Positions 4,485 to 31,689 of a stretch of DNA of 33,023 nucleotides are shown here, piece by piece. The notes beneath the pieces are model-generated. The model did no database searches and was not told the DNA's origin. It saw only the letters and a program-made list of their open reading frames with translations. Positions within the stretch are counted from its first letter, which is position 1, and each line of letters opens with the position of its first letter. The DNA is from Treponema sp. (lineage in GTDB: Bacteria; Spirochaetota; Spirochaetia; Treponematales; Breznakiellaceae), in assembly GCA_009777995.1 (NCBI GenBank), contig WRKT01000026.1:1-33023 (forward strand), given 5' to 3'. A program made the position numbers and the translations under genes.

Positions 4485-5357
4485 ATGGGAATAAAAATGC
4501 TGAAAGAACATCCTTCGATGGGGCAGCTTGCCATCCTTCTTACTGCTATTTTGTGGAGTTCAAGCGGCCTCTTCGTTAAATTGCTCGAATGGCACCCCGT
4601 GGTCATAACCGGAGTCAGAAGCTATATCGCAGTCATTTTCCTCCTTGTTTTGCGCTTTATTTCCCCTCCAAAAACTAGTGTAAAGAACGCAGCCCTCCCC
4701 CTATGGATAGGTGCCTTAGCATTTTCGTTTACAATGATCAGTTTTGTTATTGCAAACCGGATTACAACCGCGGCAAATGCCATTATGCTCCAGTACTCTG
4801 CCCCGATTTGGGCAGCCTTCCTAGCCTGGTGGCTATTAAAAGAAAAGCCAAGGTGGGAGCATTGGGGAGCATTGGTGCTGGTCTTTTGCGGCCTGCTCCT
4901 CTTTTTTCGCGGGGGCCTTGGCTCAGGTGCTCTTTTAGGGGACATTCTTTCGGTTGCATCAGGCATATCCTTCGGCCTTTATACGATCCTATTAAGGAAG
5001 ATAAAAGAGGGAAATCCAAGGGATATAATGCTCCTTGGCCACGCAATAAGCGCCTTTTTAAGCATCCCCTTCATAATTCTCTACCCTCCGACATTAAACG
5101 CCACATCGGTCTCAATAATTTTCTATATGGGGATAATCCAGATTGGCCTTACATCGGTATTGTTTGCATACGGAATGAAGAGGGTTAGGGCAATACAGGC
5201 AATGCTAATTGCGACAATTGAGCCGATCCTTAGCCCGGTCTGGGTTTTCATTGTCTTACGGGAGACCCCCACCCTTACAGCCCTTGCAGGAGGCACTGTA
5301 ATAGTAGCAACGGTCTTGGTTTCTTCCATAATAGGATGGAGGAGAGAGGAGATATAG
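4485..5357 (+). CDS. EamA/DMT-superfamily membrane transporter
   Basis: A 290-residue polytopic protein with about ten hydrophobic helices in two EamA repeats (roughly residues 14-140 and 152-285). Features seen are AILWSSSGLFVK at the start, NAIMLQYSAPIWAAFLAWWLLKE at the end of repeat 1, and a matching AMLIATIEPILSPVWVFI segment in repeat 2, all typical of drug/metabolite exporters. Substrate cannot be read from sequence. Two starts are possible: ATG 4485, which fits a leaderless transcript from the promoter just upstream, or ATG 4497, which has GGGA six bases before it. The downstream alkyltransferase-like gene begins 2 bases after the stop, so the two form an operon. Confidence 0.9.
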   Translation: MGIKMLKEHPSMGQLAILLTAILWSSSGLFVKLLEWHPVVITGVRSYIAVIFLLVLRFISPPKTSVKNAALPLWIGALAFSFTMISFVIANRITTAANAIMLQYSAPIWAAFLAWWLLKEKPRWEHWGALVLVFCGLLLFFRGGLGSGALLGDILSVASGISFGLYTILLRKIKEGNPRDIMLLGHAISAFLSIPFIILYPPTLNATSVSIIFYMGIIQIGLTSVLFAYGMKRVRAIQAMLIATIEPILSPVWVFIVLRETPTLTALAGGTVIVATVLVSSIIGWRREEI

Positions 5358-17854: not shown

Positions 17855-17968
17855 AATGATACCTATTTATGGCAACTTTGTACAATATCCTGCTCAAGCA
17901 ATATAGCTTTTCGCGGGCATTCTACTTTACTTTTTGCGGGAGCTGTATTATAAATAATGCGGAGAACT

Positions 17969-19207
17969 ATGATAGAAAATTATCCAAGGTGGAGAACTGA
18001 GAGCCTTTTACAGGCATTAGATAATCGCAGGGTCATAATAATAAGTGGAGCTCGCCAGAGTGGTAAAACTACGCTGACTGAGCAAATAAGGAAACCCGGC
18101 TTTGAGTATCGTACCCTTGATGACACGAATTTGCTGGATTTGGCTCTTAACGATCCAAAAGGGTTCGTAAAAACATCATCCGAAACCCTTATTATAGATG
18201 AAATACAGAAAGCTCCAAAACTAATCCCTGAAATTAAAATGGTTGTGGATAAGGATAACCGAAACGGACAATTTATACTCACCGGTTCTGTAAATCTTCA
18301 AACAATGCCCGGGGTTAGAGAGAGCCTTGCAGGCCGTGTGAAAAATATAAGATTGCGCCCGTTGACTATGGGGGAAATTTTTAAGAGAAAGCCGCGATTT
18401 CTGGAATCTGCTTTTGCAGGGAATTTCCCGGAATATTTATACGGCTATGATAAACGTGCTATTTTCGAGCTCGCATTTCGCGGGGGATATCCCGAGGCAA
18501 TCCGTATAAAAAACACTAATGAGGTTCGCGAATGGCATAGGGATTATCTGAAAACATTGATCGAATACGATCTTGTAGATTTCGCTAATATTAGACGTAA
18601 AGACGCCTTGGAAGAACTCCTTCCTGTATTGGCTGCATGGTCTTCAAAATTTATGGATATAAATGCTATTTCGTCATCCTTTTCATTGTCAAAACCAACT
18701 ATAGACAGTTATATTAACTTGATTTTATCCCTTTATATATTTGATAAAGTATCCCCATGGCTCAAAACTGATTATGAGCGGGTTCGACGGAAATCTAAGC
18801 TATTTGCCGGAGACTCAGGGCTTATGACGTCAATCCTTAACTGGCAGATTGATGAAGTAATGCTGAATGTTGACCGTTCAGGTAAGCTCATGGAAACCTT
18901 TGTATATCAAGAACTGGCAGCACAAGTTGATTTAGAAACAAGATATTCGCTATATCAATATAGAGACAGAGAAAAGCGGGAAATAGACTTTATTATAGAG
19001 CGTGATGATGGTGCAATTTTAGGTATAGAAATTAAAGCAGGTCATAATGTATCTAGAGGAGATTTTGCAGCACAGCAGTGGTTTAGAGACAGTTTCATAA
19101 AAGAAAAGAGGCCTTATACAGGAATCGTCCTATATTCAGGCGACAGAACGATATCATATAGTGATAATTTTTTTACAGTCCCGATTTCTGCGCTTTGGAT
19201 GGAGTAA
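17969..19207 (+). CDS. AAA ATPase with C-terminal DUF4143 domain
   Basis: About 412 residues. An AAA_14-type ATPase comes first: Walker A GARQSGKTT (27-35), Walker B TLIIDEIQ (73-80), sensor GSVNLQT, then ESLAGRV and RLRPLTMGE. DUF4143 follows, with a winged-helix-like middle and a C-terminal YRDREKREIDFIIER plus GIEIKAG, a PD-(D/E)XK-like E-x-D/E-x-K arrangement. Proteins of this build are numerous in treponemes and gut bacteria and their role is not settled; defence or mobile-element roles have been proposed. Start: ATG 17969 has GGAG 5 bases upstream; ATG 17957, which lies 5 bases after a TATTAT box, is the alternative. A paralog with the same layout is at 28610-29830. Confidence 0.85.
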   Translation: MIENYPRWRTESLLQALDNRRVIIISGARQSGKTTLTEQIRKPGFEYRTLDDTNLLDLALNDPKGFVKTSSETLIIDEIQKAPKLIPEIKMVVDKDNRNGQFILTGSVNLQTMPGVRESLAGRVKNIRLRPLTMGEIFKRKPRFLESAFAGNFPEYLYGYDKRAIFELAFRGGYPEAIRIKNTNEVREWHRDYLKTLIEYDLVDFANIRRKDALEELLPVLAAWSSKFMDINAISSSFSLSKPTIDSYINLILSLYIFDKVSPWLKTDYERVRRKSKLFAGDSGLMTSILNWQIDEVMLNVDRSGKLMETFVYQELAAQVDLETRYSLYQYRDREKREIDFIIERDDGAILGIEIKAGHNVSRGDFAAQQWFRDSFIKEKRPYTGIVLYSGDRTISYSDNFFTVPISALWME

Positions 19208-28609: not shown

Positions 28610-29830
28610 TTGTATATAAAGCGTGCTATTGAGAATACGATTTTACAGATATCAAGAGATTTTCCCGTATTATTACTGACAGGTCCAAGGCAGGTTGGGA
28701 AAACTACCCTGCTCCGGCATCTTGGAGGAGAAGAACGCAGTTATATTACATTGGATGATCCGGATGCACGAAAGCTGGCAAGAGATGATCCTGCCTTATT
28801 TATGCAGAGATATAAGCCGCCGCTAACAATTGACGAAGCACAATATGCTCCGCAATTATTTCCATATATCAAGATGAGTGTTGACAATTCAGGGAAAAAG
28901 GGAGAGTTCTGGCTTACAGGCTCTCAGACCTTTCACTCAATGAAAAATGTAAGTGAATCTCTTGCAGGAAGGATCGCAATAATGAGCCTTTCACCTCTAT
29001 CAAACAGCGAGATTAGCGGCGTAGATTCAGAACCGTTTACCACTTCCGGCGAACGATTAATCGGGAGGATAAAGAATGTTCCTAAAATGGATCTCTTGCA
29101 GATTTACGAGCGCATTTTTCGAGGAGGAATGCCTGCCTTATATATAAAAGAGGACTTCAATATCCAGGCTTTTTTCTCTTCGTATATATCAACTTACTTA
29201 CAGCGTGATATTCGCGATTTAACTCAAGTAGCCGACGAGATGTCATTCTATAATTTTATGGTTAGTGCTGCGGGAAGAACCGGAAAGCCCCTCAACCTGG
29301 ATGAAATGGGGCGTGAGACCGGTATCAGTGCGCCAACTGCCAAAAAATGGCTTTCCCTGCTGGTATCATCAGGATTAGTTTATCTTTTGCAACCCTACCA
29401 TAATAATATTCTAAAAAGGATGATAAAAACACCGGTACTGCATTTTCTGGATACAGGTCTATGTGCTCACCTCCTGAAATGGAATGACTCAAAAGTTTTG
29501 GAAAGGGGGGCAATGTCAGGTGCCTTCTTTGAGAGCTGGGTTTTTGCGGAAATTTATAAAAGCTATCTAAATGCAGGTAAAGTACCACCTGTTTTTTATT
29601 ATAGAGATAAGGAAAAAAGAGAGATTGACATATTATTACTCGAAAACGGGGTTCTCTATCCGATTGAAATTAAAAAGGCTGCATCCCCCGGAGTAGAATC
29701 AATTAAACATTTTAAGGTGCTTAATAATATAAGTGATATCAAGGTCGGACCCGGAGCAGTGATCTGCATGTCAGGAGATCTGCTTCCGATTGATCGGAAT
29801 AATAATTTTGTCCCCGCGGGGCTGATATAG
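28610..29830 (+). CDS. Second AAA ATPase with C-terminal DUF4143 domain
   Basis: 406 residues from TTG 28610, supported by GAGGAAGAG about 6 bases upstream and by the family-like opening YIKRAIENTILQI. Walker A is GPRQVGKTT (25-33), Walker B PLTIDEAQ (71-78), then the GSQTF sensor, VSESLAGRIA and LSPLSNSE. The DUF4143 part contains a GRTGKPLNLDEMGRETG winged-helix segment and ends in YRDKEKREIDILLLEN followed by YPIEIKK, the PD-(D/E)XK-like residues. Same design as the protein at 17969 but low identity, so the two are not a recent duplication. Its stop codon directly abuts the stump of a DUF3782 gene, suggesting insertion or recombination at this site. Confidence 0.85.
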   Translation: MYIKRAIENTILQISRDFPVLLLTGPRQVGKTTLLRHLGGEERSYITLDDPDARKLARDDPALFMQRYKPPLTIDEAQYAPQLFPYIKMSVDNSGKKGEFWLTGSQTFHSMKNVSESLAGRIAIMSLSPLSNSEISGVDSEPFTTSGERLIGRIKNVPKMDLLQIYERIFRGGMPALYIKEDFNIQAFFSSYISTYLQRDIRDLTQVADEMSFYNFMVSAAGRTGKPLNLDEMGRETGISAPTAKKWLSLLVSSGLVYLLQPYHNNILKRMIKTPVLHFLDTGLCAHLLKWNDSKVLERGAMSGAFFESWVFAEIYKSYLNAGKVPPVFYYRDKEKREIDILLLENGVLYPIEIKKAASPGVESIKHFKVLNNISDIKVGPGAVICMSGDLLPIDRNNNFVPAGLI

Positions 29831-29977
29831 CGGAAGTATTACGGCGCAATAGCAGGAGCTATTATGGAAGAGTCTATTTCAAATACAATCTTGCAAAACG
29901 GGTTTTACCTTATTGAACAAACAGGCGATACCGTTAAACTGAGCACACCTGAGGACTTTGCCCCACGAGAATGGTGA
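29831..29977 (+). pseudogene. 3' stump of a DUF3782-like nuclease gene
   Basis: From the base after the ATPase stop, an open frame of 48 codons runs to TGA 29975-29977. It aligns without gaps to the C-terminus of the gene at 5722: YYGAIAGAIMEES with HHGAIAVAIIDDA, QNGFYLIEQTGDTV with KQGFYLIEQTGDTV, and the terminal PREW. The N-terminal part and the nuclease motif are missing, so this is a remnant. An ATG at 29864 could start 37 codons, but no ribosome site is seen. Confidence 0.85.
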
Positions 29978-30010
29978 CCTGCTTTAAGAAAATCGCTGTG
30001 TTTTGGTACA

Positions 30011-30044
30011 CACAGAGGACACAGAGAGCACGGAGATCACAGAG
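30011..30044 (+). repeat. CACRGAG element, copy C (single arm)
   Basis: Four heptamers (CACAGAG, CACAGAG, CACGGAG, CACAGAG) at 9-nt intervals. Only this arm is present; a CTGTG at 29996 is the sole trace of a partner. It lies between the DUF3782 stump and the end of the toxin gene. Confidence 0.85.
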
Positions 30045-30048
30045 GGTA

Positions 30049-30519
30049 TTAAAGTTGTCCAGCGTTGTTTTCCGGATCAGGTAAGCCAAGCACATTATGG
30101 AAATATTTTAATGAAGAATAGAGGCATAATGATGATACAGGAAGTGAGGGGTTATCAGCACGGCGCTTGATTTCTTTTTTATATCGGGACACATAAGAGG
30201 AGAACTGTCTTTTAATTAAAAACTCTCTTTTTATATAAATTTTATACTCATTTTGCCGGATCGTAACCGGGTTTGTATCAATGTGTTCAGGTTCAGTGAC
30301 TACCACTGCTTTAGAATAATCCAATCCTTTGTTCATTTCATTAGAGTTATCTGCGATAAAACAGTATCTGTGATTGATATTTGATCTAAGAGGAATGGCA
30401 TAAGTTAGGTTATCTAGTTCAAGCAATAAAACATAATACGGTCGATTTTCATTAGTGAGAATCTCTTCGTATTTACTGAACTGCTCGTAAAAAGCCGCGC
30501 TTAAACGATAAAATTTCAT
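30049..30519 (-). CDS. Type III toxin-antitoxin toxin, TenpN/ToxN-like endoribonuclease
   Basis: A 156-residue protein, with the size and phrases of TenpN-class type III toxins: MKFYRLSAAFYEQF at the start, PYYVLLLEL, then LTYAIPLRSNINHRYCF, GLDYSKAVVV, IDTNPVTIRQNEY and a lysine- and arginine-rich FSSYVSRYKKEIKRR helix. Known members are endoribonucleases held inactive by pseudoknot RNAs and act in phage abortive infection or plasmid upkeep. The family call rests on remembered sequence patterns, but the context is decisive: a repeat-containing RNA with its own promoter and terminator ends 10 bases before the toxin ATG. Translation would come from read-through of that terminator, as in ToxIN. 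The ribosome site (AGGT) is weak. Confidence 0.8.
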   Translation of the reverse strand: MKFYRLSAAFYEQFSKYEEILTNENRPYYVLLLELDNLTYAIPLRSNINHRYCFIADNSNEMNKGLDYSKAVVVTEPEHIDTNPVTIRQNEYKIYIKREFLIKRQFSSYVSRYKKEIKRRADNPSLPVSSLCLYSSLKYFHNVLGLPDPENNAGQL

Positions 30520-30529
30520 TATTACCTAT

Positions 30530-30556
30530 AAAAAAACGCCCATTAGGTGGGCGTTT
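30530..30556 (-). terminator. Intrinsic terminator between the antitoxin RNA and the toxin gene
   Basis: On the minus strand a 9-bp stem (AAACGCCCA, 30556-30548, with its complement at 30542-30534 and a 5-nt loop) is followed by seven T residues (30536-30530). It is a textbook Rho-independent terminator that would allow limited read-through into the toxin. Confidence 0.9.
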
Positions 30557-30658
30557 AAAAATAGGGCATTCTTTTGATTTACGTGATTGCGCCCTACAAA
30601 CACATCATCGATCGAACTTTCTTTAGATTTACGTGATTGCGTTCTACAATCACATCAT
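30530..30658 (-). ncRNA. Type III antitoxin RNA with two pseudoknot repeats
   Basis: The predicted RNA starts near 30657 and ends at 30530. It contains two repeats with a 50-nt period; 38-nt blocks at 30658-30621 and 30608-30571 differ at only a few positions. In each copy the arms GUGAUUG/CAAUCAC (first copy) or GUGUUUG/CAAUCAC (second) enclose a 7-nt loop. The loop UAGAAC (first) can pair with GUUCGA at 30617-30612 with one mismatch, and UAGGGC (second) pairs perfectly with GCCCUA at 30567-30562. The distance from stem to tail is 15 nt in both copies. The A-A to G-G change in the loop is matched by U-U to C-C in the tail, so base pairing is conserved while sequence changes. That is the H-type pseudoknot design of ToxI/TenpI antitoxins. 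Confidence 0.85.
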
Positions 30659-30663
30659 GGCTA

Positions 30664-30692
30664 ATTATACAACACTTTAGGAAGGCTGTCAA
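30664..30692 (-). promoter_or_regulatory. Consensus sigma70 promoter of the antitoxin RNA
   Basis: On the minus strand TTGACA (30692-30687), exactly 17 nt, TATAAT (30669-30664). Both hexamers are perfect, the best promoter in the window, in keeping with the need for excess antitoxin RNA. Confidence 0.9.
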
Positions 30693-30712
30693 TTGAGCTA
30701 TGAAAAATAAGT

Positions 30713-30755
30713 CTTTGAATTTTAATTCAAAGTAGACTGAAAGCACGAAGTGATA
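30713..30755 (+). repeat. Hairpin plus left copy of a direct repeat flanking the Rpn region
   Basis: CTTTGAAT (30713-30720) and ATTCAAAG (30725-30732) form a hairpin with a 4-nt loop. From 30724 to 30755 the sequence AATTCAAAGTAGACTGAAAG and onward recurs, with few changes, at 32083-32127 beyond the Rpn genes. Confidence 0.7.
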
Positions 30756-30803
30756 TAAATATATAAAAAAAATCTAAAAAGGCATAAAAATTCAAAGCAA
30801 AAT

Positions 30804-30832
30804 CCATCTCCGCGCAGTATAGGAGATGGAGG
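30804..30832 (+). promoter_or_regulatory. Hairpin over the Rpn ribosome binding site
   Basis: CCATCTCC (30804-30811) and GGAGATGG (30822-30829) are perfectly complementary with a 10-nt loop. The right arm overlaps the Shine-Dalgarno (GGAGG, 30828-30832), 5 bases before ATG 30838. Folding would partly hide the site and lower translation of the nuclease. Confidence 0.5.
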
Positions 30833-30837
30833 AATGA

Positions 30838-31689
30838 ATGAAAACGAATACAAAATTCAAGAGCAGTGTCTTCTCGCTGCTCTTCAGCGACCCGGATGTT
30901 CTTAGAGAGCTATACTGTGCTTTAAAAGGTCTCACTCTGCCTGATGATACTCCTGTTATCATCAATACCCTGGAAGATGCTCTTTTCATGGACCGGGTTA
31001 ACGACATTTCATTTGAAATAGGCGGCAGACTGGTGGTCCTTATCGAGCATCAGTCTAGTATAAACCCAAATATGGCTCTAAGGTTCTTAATGTATATTGG
31101 CAGAATATACGAAAAAATAATTGAAGATAAAAATATTTATTCAAAGAAGCAAATTTCTATCCCTAGACCGGAATTCTTTGTGCTCTATAACGGGACTGAT
31201 TCCTTCCCGGATGAGGATACTTTTAAGCTCTCAGAGTTGTTCATGAGTATAGAACCTCTCGGGCTTCCTGAGATGATAAACCCTCTATTAGAGCTTGAAG
31301 TAAAGGTATTAAACATTAATGAGGGAAGAAACAAAGCGATTCTTAGAAGGTGCAGGTTTCTAAACCAATACAGTGCCTTTACAGCAAAGGTACGAGAGTA
31401 TAAATCCGGTGATGTTAGCTTACAGGAAGCTATTCAAAAAGCTGTTGTTTATTGCCGTAACCATGATATACTAAAGGAGTTCTTGGAGAAACAAGCATCG
31501 GAGGTATTAAATATGCTGATGGTCGAATGGAATATGGATGATGCCCTCGCAGTTCGTTTCGAGGAAGGCGTTGAAGAAGGTCAACAAAAATTACAGAAAT
31601 ATGTCCTTGAACTTATCGATCAAGGCCTGAGTAGAGAAGAAATAAAGAAACGCATAGAAGCCTATTGTAATAAAGCAGGTGGAAATTAA
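30838..31689 (+). CDS. Rpn-family recombination-promoting nuclease / PD-(D/E)XK transposase-like protein
   Basis: A 283-residue protein. The catalytic core (about 50-75) shows Asp56 (RVNDISFE) and Glu70-x-Gln72 (VVLIEHQSS), the D...E-x-Q pattern of the Rpn/PD-(D/E)XK transposase-like family, followed by the typical MALRFLMYIGRIYEKI. Residues about 100-160 (FFVLYNGTDSFPDEDTFKLSELF) are also family features. The tail, from about 226, is helical and charged with an EEGVEEG segment. E. coli Rpn proteins are DNases that promote recombination and act against phages, and their C-terminal part is also made alone as an antitoxin. Here an internal start and a separate tail gene suggest the same. Confidence 0.85.
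   Translation: MKTNTKFKSSVFSLLFSDPDVLRELYCALKGLTLPDDTPVIINTLEDALFMDRVNDISFEIGGRLVVLIEHQSSINPNMALRFLMYIGRIYEKIIEDKNIYSKKQISIPRPEFFVLYNGTDSFPDEDTFKLSELFMSIEPLGLPEMINPLLELEVKVLNINEGRNKAILRRCRFLNQYSAFTAKVREYKSGDVSLQEAIQKAVVYCRNHDILKEFLEKQASEVLNMLMVEWNMDDALAVRFEEGVEEGQQKLQKYVLELIDQGLSREEIKKRIEAYCNKAGGN
31500..31515 (+). promoter_or_regulatory. Internal Shine-Dalgarno and ATG within the Rpn gene
   Basis: GGAGG at 31500-31504 lies 8 nt before ATG 31513, which is codon 226 and in frame. The tail gene downstream has the related GAGG (31702-31705), also 8 nt before its ATG 31714, and the 15 bases from GAGG to ATG are nearly the same. Confidence 0.65.
31513..31689 (+). CDS. Possible internal Rpn short product (gene within a gene)
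   Basis: If translation starts at the internal ATG, the product is 58 residues: MLMVEWNMDDALAVRFEEGV at the N-terminus, then a helical QKYVLELIDQGLSREEIKKR segment. It covers exactly the part that is repeated as a free gene at 31714-31938. By analogy with E. coli RpnS, it could bind and restrain the full-length nuclease. Not proven; the internal ribosome site is the evidence. Confidence 0.45.
   Translation: MLMVEWNMDDALAVRFEEGVEEGQQKLQKYVLELIDQGLSREEIKKRIEAYCNKAGGN

Follow-up and report, generated by a model that had tools for sequence, protein, structure and literature searches.

A probable TenpIN toxin–antitoxin locus with a two-repeat RNA of the Rfam 6A family and predicted pseudoknot fold in a Treponema-group genome

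What do two similar repeats between a promoter and a small open reading frame (ORF) encode in an uncultured Treponema? The question is raised by positions 30,049 to 30,692 of contig WRKT01000026.1 (assembly GCA_009777995.1), which we analysed over its whole length of 33,023 nucleotides (nt; hereafter, the window). Very probably, this locus holds a TenpN toxin behind a two-repeat pseudoknot RNA antitoxin (TenpI) that is likely to bind and inactivate it, which documents TenpIN in uncultured Treponema-group genomes, a group that we take to be of termite-gut origin. The kind of system is already known: TenpIN is named after Photorhabdus luminescens, CptIN comes from Eubacterium rectale and a 2012 survey is reportedly the source of the type III family names. 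The new points are modest, namely a link between Rfam 6A RNA and TenpI, a fixed two-unit layout and one variant without a terminator. All parts of the locus lie on the minus strand, in the order promoter, two repeats, terminator and an ORF of 156 amino acids (aa):

30687..30692, minus strand: −35 hexamer TTGACA, 12/12 consensus jointly with the −10 hexamer
30664..30669, minus strand: −10 hexamer TATAAT, 6 nt ahead of repeat 1
30608..30657, minus strand: antitoxin repeat 1 (putative TenpI unit), Rfam 6A at 43.8 bits (gathering score 41.2)
30556..30607, minus strand: antitoxin repeat 2, Rfam 6A at 40.1 bits, slightly below the gathering score
30534..30556, minus strand: intrinsic terminator separating antitoxin from toxin, 9-base-pair (bp) stem plus T-run
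30049..30519, minus strand: TenpN-family toxin of 156 aa (predicted endoribonuclease), by TenpIN profile and predicted fold

An earlier note on this DNA had described a perfect TTGACA-N17-TATAAT promoter, two repeats at a 50-nt period, a terminator and a toxin gene, all on one strand and in the order of ToxIN, and this description holds throughout. The promoter at 30692–30664 matches the consensus sequence at 12 of 12 positions, the repeats begin at 30657 and 30607 and so have a period of exactly 50 nt, the terminator at 30556–30534 has a 9-bp stem with a T-run, and every part is in its place on the minus strand. Within 29900–30900, four promoter-like sites were found against 3.1 expected from shuffled sequences; because so many arise by chance, what stands out is the perfect score (the other three sites score 9/12) and not the number of sites. 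Terminator-like sites numbered two, against 0.4 expected. The remark that repeat 1 begins near the RNA 5′ end is likewise borne out: it begins 6 nt after the −10 hexamer, which places the predicted transcript start at about 30657–30658, at or beside the first base of the repeat. Repeats, terminator and toxin follow one another in the order of type III loci, as outlined in a 2016 review (PMC5086642).

The 156-aa ORF scores 133.1 bits against the NCBIfam TenpIN model (cut-off 90) over the full length of the profile, and its predicted fold has type III toxins, with the ToxN/MazF fold, as its top five structural matches. Judged by sequence, it is a TenpN-family type III toxin; the similarity to type III toxin profiles that the earlier note had proposed to look for lies far above the TenpIN cut-off. 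In an alignment of 15 TenpN proteins (11 from outside the close group, and some cut to their tblastn match), the invariant residues are R26, Y28, I42, P43, R45, G65, D67, K70, E91, I102 and Y113; three others, H50, L66 and L137, are almost invariant. For ToxN-Ec, PMC8860590 gives an active site of Lys33, Thr52, Ser53 and Lys55, with Ala49-Pro50-Leu51 preceding Thr52. When P43 is set on Pro50, R26 falls on Lys33 (both 17 residues earlier) and R45 on Thr52; this motif line-up is a lead only to a possible correspondence of R26 and R45 with ToxN active-site residues.

Each repeat can be drawn as an H-type pseudoknot. In repeat 1, stem 1 (30653–30647 with 30639–30633, 7/7 pairs) encloses UAGAACG, of which GAAC (30644–30641) pairs with GUUC (30617–30614). 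Stem 1 of repeat 2 (30603–30597 with 30589–30583) forms 6/7 pairs with one U–U mismatch, and its loop–tail helix joins GGGC (30594–30591) to GCCC (30567–30564). The earlier note had drawn a 7-bp stem in both repeats, a gap of 15 nt between stem and tail, and loop–tail pairing of UAGAAC with GUUCGA and of UAGGGC with GCCCUA. The gap is as it described and the second pairing is complete (6/6); the 7-bp stem is true of repeat 1 but not of repeat 2, and the first pairing reaches only 5/6 positions.

We examined covariation in 35 repeats from 18 spirochaete arrays, of which 32 (29 distinct) were gap-free and in register and entered the pair counts. Two repeats from genome G064 and one from G137, put out of register by one-base length differences, were left out of the counts, and each forms 4/4 loop–tail pairs by eye; the G513 repeats stood outside the alignment. 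For the whole pseudoknotted structure, 97.8% of cells pair (shuffled mean 89.9), 31 cells show two-sided changes (9.2 in shuffles) and the covariation score is 0.294 (0.148 shuffled; best slid version 0.134). For the loop–tail helix alone, the corresponding values are 96.6% (84.2), 24 (8.8) and 0.573 (0.341 shuffled; at most 0.306 when slid). None of these six values was reached in any of 500 shuffles, and two-sided changes, which the earlier note had hoped to see in homologous loci, occur in both helices. The loop–tail pairs include GAAC/GUUC, GAGC/GCUC, GGGC/GCCC and GGAC/GUCC; when the nine distinct pairs among the 32 repeats are each counted once, 33/36 cells pair, equalled by 1 in 10,000 shuffles. 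Because kinship inflates covariation counts, it is the variety of pair types, and not the number of sequences, that gives the result its strength. A MAFFT alignment of repeats across phyla was too poor for pair counting. These data support an H-type pseudoknot as the fold of the antitoxin unit, with its helix kept by covariation, and provide a covariation-supported model of TenpI.

In a cmscan search, the two repeats hit the Rfam family RF02925, '6A RNA' (E = 1.2e-7 and 1.1e-6); repeat 1 alone passes the gathering score, likewise in the whole-window scan. This family is labelled merely 'Gene; sRNA', a label that does not mention an antitoxin, and the consensus structure printed by cmscan is the hairpin alone, with the pseudoknot helix not drawn. 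Among 195 genomes of the same bacterial family as the window, 6A matched 16 at E ≤ 0.001, of which 14 exceeded its cut-off, and TenpN matched 15, of which 10 exceeded its own. All 15 genomes with TenpN carry 6A adjoining it on the same contig, and the sixteenth has 6A alone. Because 6A adjoins TenpN in each of the 15, it is most simply, and very probably, read as a single branch of TenpI, which would tie an Rfam family lacking a functional label to the TenpIN toxin family. We found no mention of the 6A name or accession in the literature searched, mostly without subscription papers. The portion of PMC12804078 (2025) at hand reports that natural type III antitoxins were run against Rfam and the matches used, leaving the families unnamed, so the link may already stand in the tables of others.

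A phylum-wide draw of 392 genomes (G000 and G108 included again) gave 6A in three and TenpN in seven. The third 6A genome, G501, belongs to another spirochaete family, and a TenpN N-terminal fragment adjoins its array; G346, G429 and G544 yielded only weak, fragmentary TenpN matches. Each of the 18 spirochaete arrays has its best promoter-like site (9–12 of 12) ending 6–9 nt before repeat 1, an agreement that is partly built in because the best site was picked for each array. A hairpin and T-run follow repeat 2 in nine of the ten intact loci of the family, the exception being G108.

The same layout recurs far from the spirochaetes. In 13 distant TenpIN loci (12 distinct, L072 and L075 being identical), a script that scanned the 420 nt before the toxin found two repeat copies each time, at a period of 50–57 nt (weakest pair 28/45 identical), and a promoter-like site scoring 8–12 of 12, with the −10 hexamer 5–8 nt before repeat 1 by eye. 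Promoter-like site, two repeats and toxin are arranged in this way in Fusobacterium, Leptotrichia, Klebsiella, Pseudomonas, Priestia, Granulicella, Vibrio and Acinetobacter. Given this shared layout, having two repeats, the first of them close to the 5′ end of the RNA, seems to be common in TenpI, and the view of the earlier note that two repeats are at the low end for type III systems does not fit these loci. The number is not universal, because PMC4885055 has a Staphylococcus aureus TenpI predicted with three repeats. What the window shares with known TenpIN systems is the toxin family, by the curated model, and the gene order. The repeats of the window are of the 6A type, which also matches the Fusobacterium and Leptotrichia loci: against RF02925, the Fusobacterium vincentii repeats score 62.7 and 63.5 bits, the Leptotrichia wadei repeats 35.7 and 36.3 bits (below the gathering score) and one Priestia repeat a weak 27.0 bits. 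The remaining distant repeats read differently and gave no 6A match at E ≤ 1.

A scan of genome contigs with the single protein found no relative, and a scan with an alignment found 13 loci there; a scan of viral contigs found two. TenpN matched 83 plasmid records, seven of which were fetched; BLASTN of the window array against plasmids gave no match, and that of the Fusobacterium array gave its own record only. Among 50,697 phage records, the sole match was a TenpN relative (30.5% identity) at 1635–2012 of the 13.7-kb Vibrio phage record PQ189334.1. The 2016 review (PMC5086642) counts eight phyla with one or more potential type III systems and names Firmicutes, Fusobacteria, Proteobacteria and Archaea; 'spiroch-' and 'Treponema' are absent from its main text. 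PMC8040213 proposes as antitoxins the structured RNAs that precede ToxN in Clostridiales and Leptotrichia, and its Treponema candidates lie ahead of ribosomal protein genes.

Variant loci occur within the group. The G108 locus (L078:4845–5400) is a TenpIN locus without a terminator. Here the pseudoknot tail of repeat 2 is followed at 8 nt by the likely toxin ATG (4949), and the probable ribosome site, AGAAGG (4932–4937), falls inside that repeat, so that antitoxin folding could block toxin translation. G147, which has an intact TenpIN elsewhere, carries on contig C4 a second two-repeat 6A array (L077:1527–1623) with a promoter-like site and no TenpN gene detected beside it, apart from one weak tblastn match some 1.3 kb further downstream (36 residues, E 0.023); it is a possible orphan antitoxin. 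The G057 array gave no tblastn TenpN match in the only 823 nt of contig that follow its repeats. TenpN is partial, split or stop-containing in G134, G191, G137, G064, G144 and G501. Seven draft genomes (L010, L011, L013, L015, L016, L017 and L048) keep an array with TenpN split, truncated, interrupted or unfound, which is consistent with loss of the toxin before the array; assembly errors and contig ends are alternative causes.

Several results weigh against a TenpN toxin held by a pseudoknot antitoxin. Compared by sequence with solved structures, the protein on its own gave no matches, and a 37-row profile gave six weak ones (best E 0.14), none of them a type III toxin; it was the fold comparison that brought up type III toxins. 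With the P-L-x-S motifs aligned, TenpN has an Arg at the active-site Thr of ToxN, so its chemistry may differ from that of ToxN. The count of further pair types was no better than in shuffles, being reached by 242/500 for the whole structure and by 500/500 for the loop–tail helix alone, and the count of pairs with two-sided change in that helix was reached by 39/500, which gives little support. Pseudoknot-free folding of the whole 134-nt RNA favours pairing between the repeats and, for repeat 2 alone, the loop–tail helix over stem 1; given this disagreement, the pseudoknot rests on covariation and not on that energy model. Finally, G513, one of the seven TenpN genomes in the phylum-wide draw, has a full TenpN in the same order behind a two-repeat array that does not match the 6A model, and its first repeat pairs poorly by eye.

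Could the repeats instead be a free-standing small RNA, or a cis-acting leader of the downstream gene, with no protein-binding role? The Rfam label would suit the former, as would the arrays of G057 and G147 contig C4, and the position of the G108 ribosome site and toxin start would suit a leader. We consider this very improbable, because 6A lies beside TenpN in every family genome with a TenpN match, because the repeats–terminator–toxin order is typical of type III loci (PMC5086642) and because arrays next to missing or broken toxins are the remnants expected if the toxin is lost first. It is very improbable that the window locus is a decayed relic making no active toxin. Decay does look common in the group, draft-assembly errors aside, and repeat 2 of the window has its stem mismatch, but the ORF is complete over the whole TenpIN profile and retains the residues invariant across phyla, and the 12/12 promoter and the terminator are present.

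We give almost no credence to a toxin of the ToxN or CptN type. The fold is shared, the window toxin weakly matches Pfam ToxN (PF13958, 13.3 bits) and PADLOC AbiQ, and the JGI annotation calls homologues 'protein AbiQ'; the Pfam score, however, falls below the cut-off of 25, whereas that for TenpIN is far above its own. Thus, of the 'TenpN/ToxN-like' toxin of the earlier note, the TenpN half stands and the ToxN half falls. The repeats differ as well, those of ToxIN/AbiQ being 34–36 nt in 2.8 to 5.5 copies (PMC5086642), against 50 nt in two copies in the window, and the toxin sequence family of CptIN is kept apart in the literature.

How might a TenpN toxin and its TenpI antitoxin work at this locus? 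Transcription from the promoter would begin at or beside the first base of repeat 1. The terminator would stop most of the transcripts, which would supply antitoxin alone, and a smaller share would continue into the toxin gene. TenpN, a predicted endoribonuclease of the ToxN/MazF fold, would then cleave its RNA precursor at a point between the repeats and remain attached to the folded units, forming a closed complex. If transcription or RNA turnover were disturbed, for example by phage infection, the short-lived RNA would be depleted, and freed TenpN could cut cellular and phage RNA. This scheme, with antitoxin made in excess, cutting of units by the toxin and a closed complex, is drawn by analogy with ToxIN, CptIN and TenpIN (PMC5086642, PMC4627078 and PMC5377504). 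In the last of these papers, Photorhabdus TenpIN in Pectobacterium reduced plating of phage PhiM1 to 1.1e-2 and left PhiS61 and PhiTE at 0.9 and 0.7. For the window locus we infer toxicity, processing, neutralization and a role in phage defence or self-maintenance, for which it would likely serve as a switch.

The two-repeat layout abutting the promoter suggests a simple idea of antitoxin units per transcript, which we offer tentatively and hold to be rather doubtful as a whole. The antitoxin of TenpIN may be fixed at two units, with transcription and not cutting defining its 5′ end; with the RNA starting on the first base of unit 1, a single toxin cut would free two pseudoknots, matching a closed 2:2 complex. 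In both Spirochaetota and Fusobacteriota, the 6A family would then be this antitoxin; in terminator-less G108, with its ribosome site inside unit 2, antitoxin folding would shut off toxin translation.

In all ten intact-toxin loci of the family, the two repeats carry different loop–tail 4-mers, with GAAC first and GGGC second in nine; the three arrays with identical 4-mers (G134, G057 and G501) all lack an intact toxin. We rejected different helices as a general rule, because the repeats of Fusobacterium, Leptotrichia and Pseudomonas fragi share loop and tail, and in these loci the TenpN matches run through. The rule is further weakened by the common ancestry of the loci and by the ability of loop 2 to pair with tail 1 through G–U, and a hand count of 17 arrays gave a p of only about 0.05.

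Among the neighbouring genes, one matching PF04754 (YhgA-like putative transposase; 30838–31689) lies divergently upstream of the antitoxin. An empty-site comparison with three genomes of the same genus (G192–G194) was uninformative, and arrival by a mobile element is neither supported nor disfavoured: a neighbouring glycosyltransferase is conserved in all three (67–70%), and the other ten window proteins tried were all absent from beside it in the stretches obtained from these genomes. The window also holds two AAA_14-DUF4143 ATPase genes (17957–19207 and 28610–29830), the second of which adjoins the toxin and has several relatives in G193 and G194.
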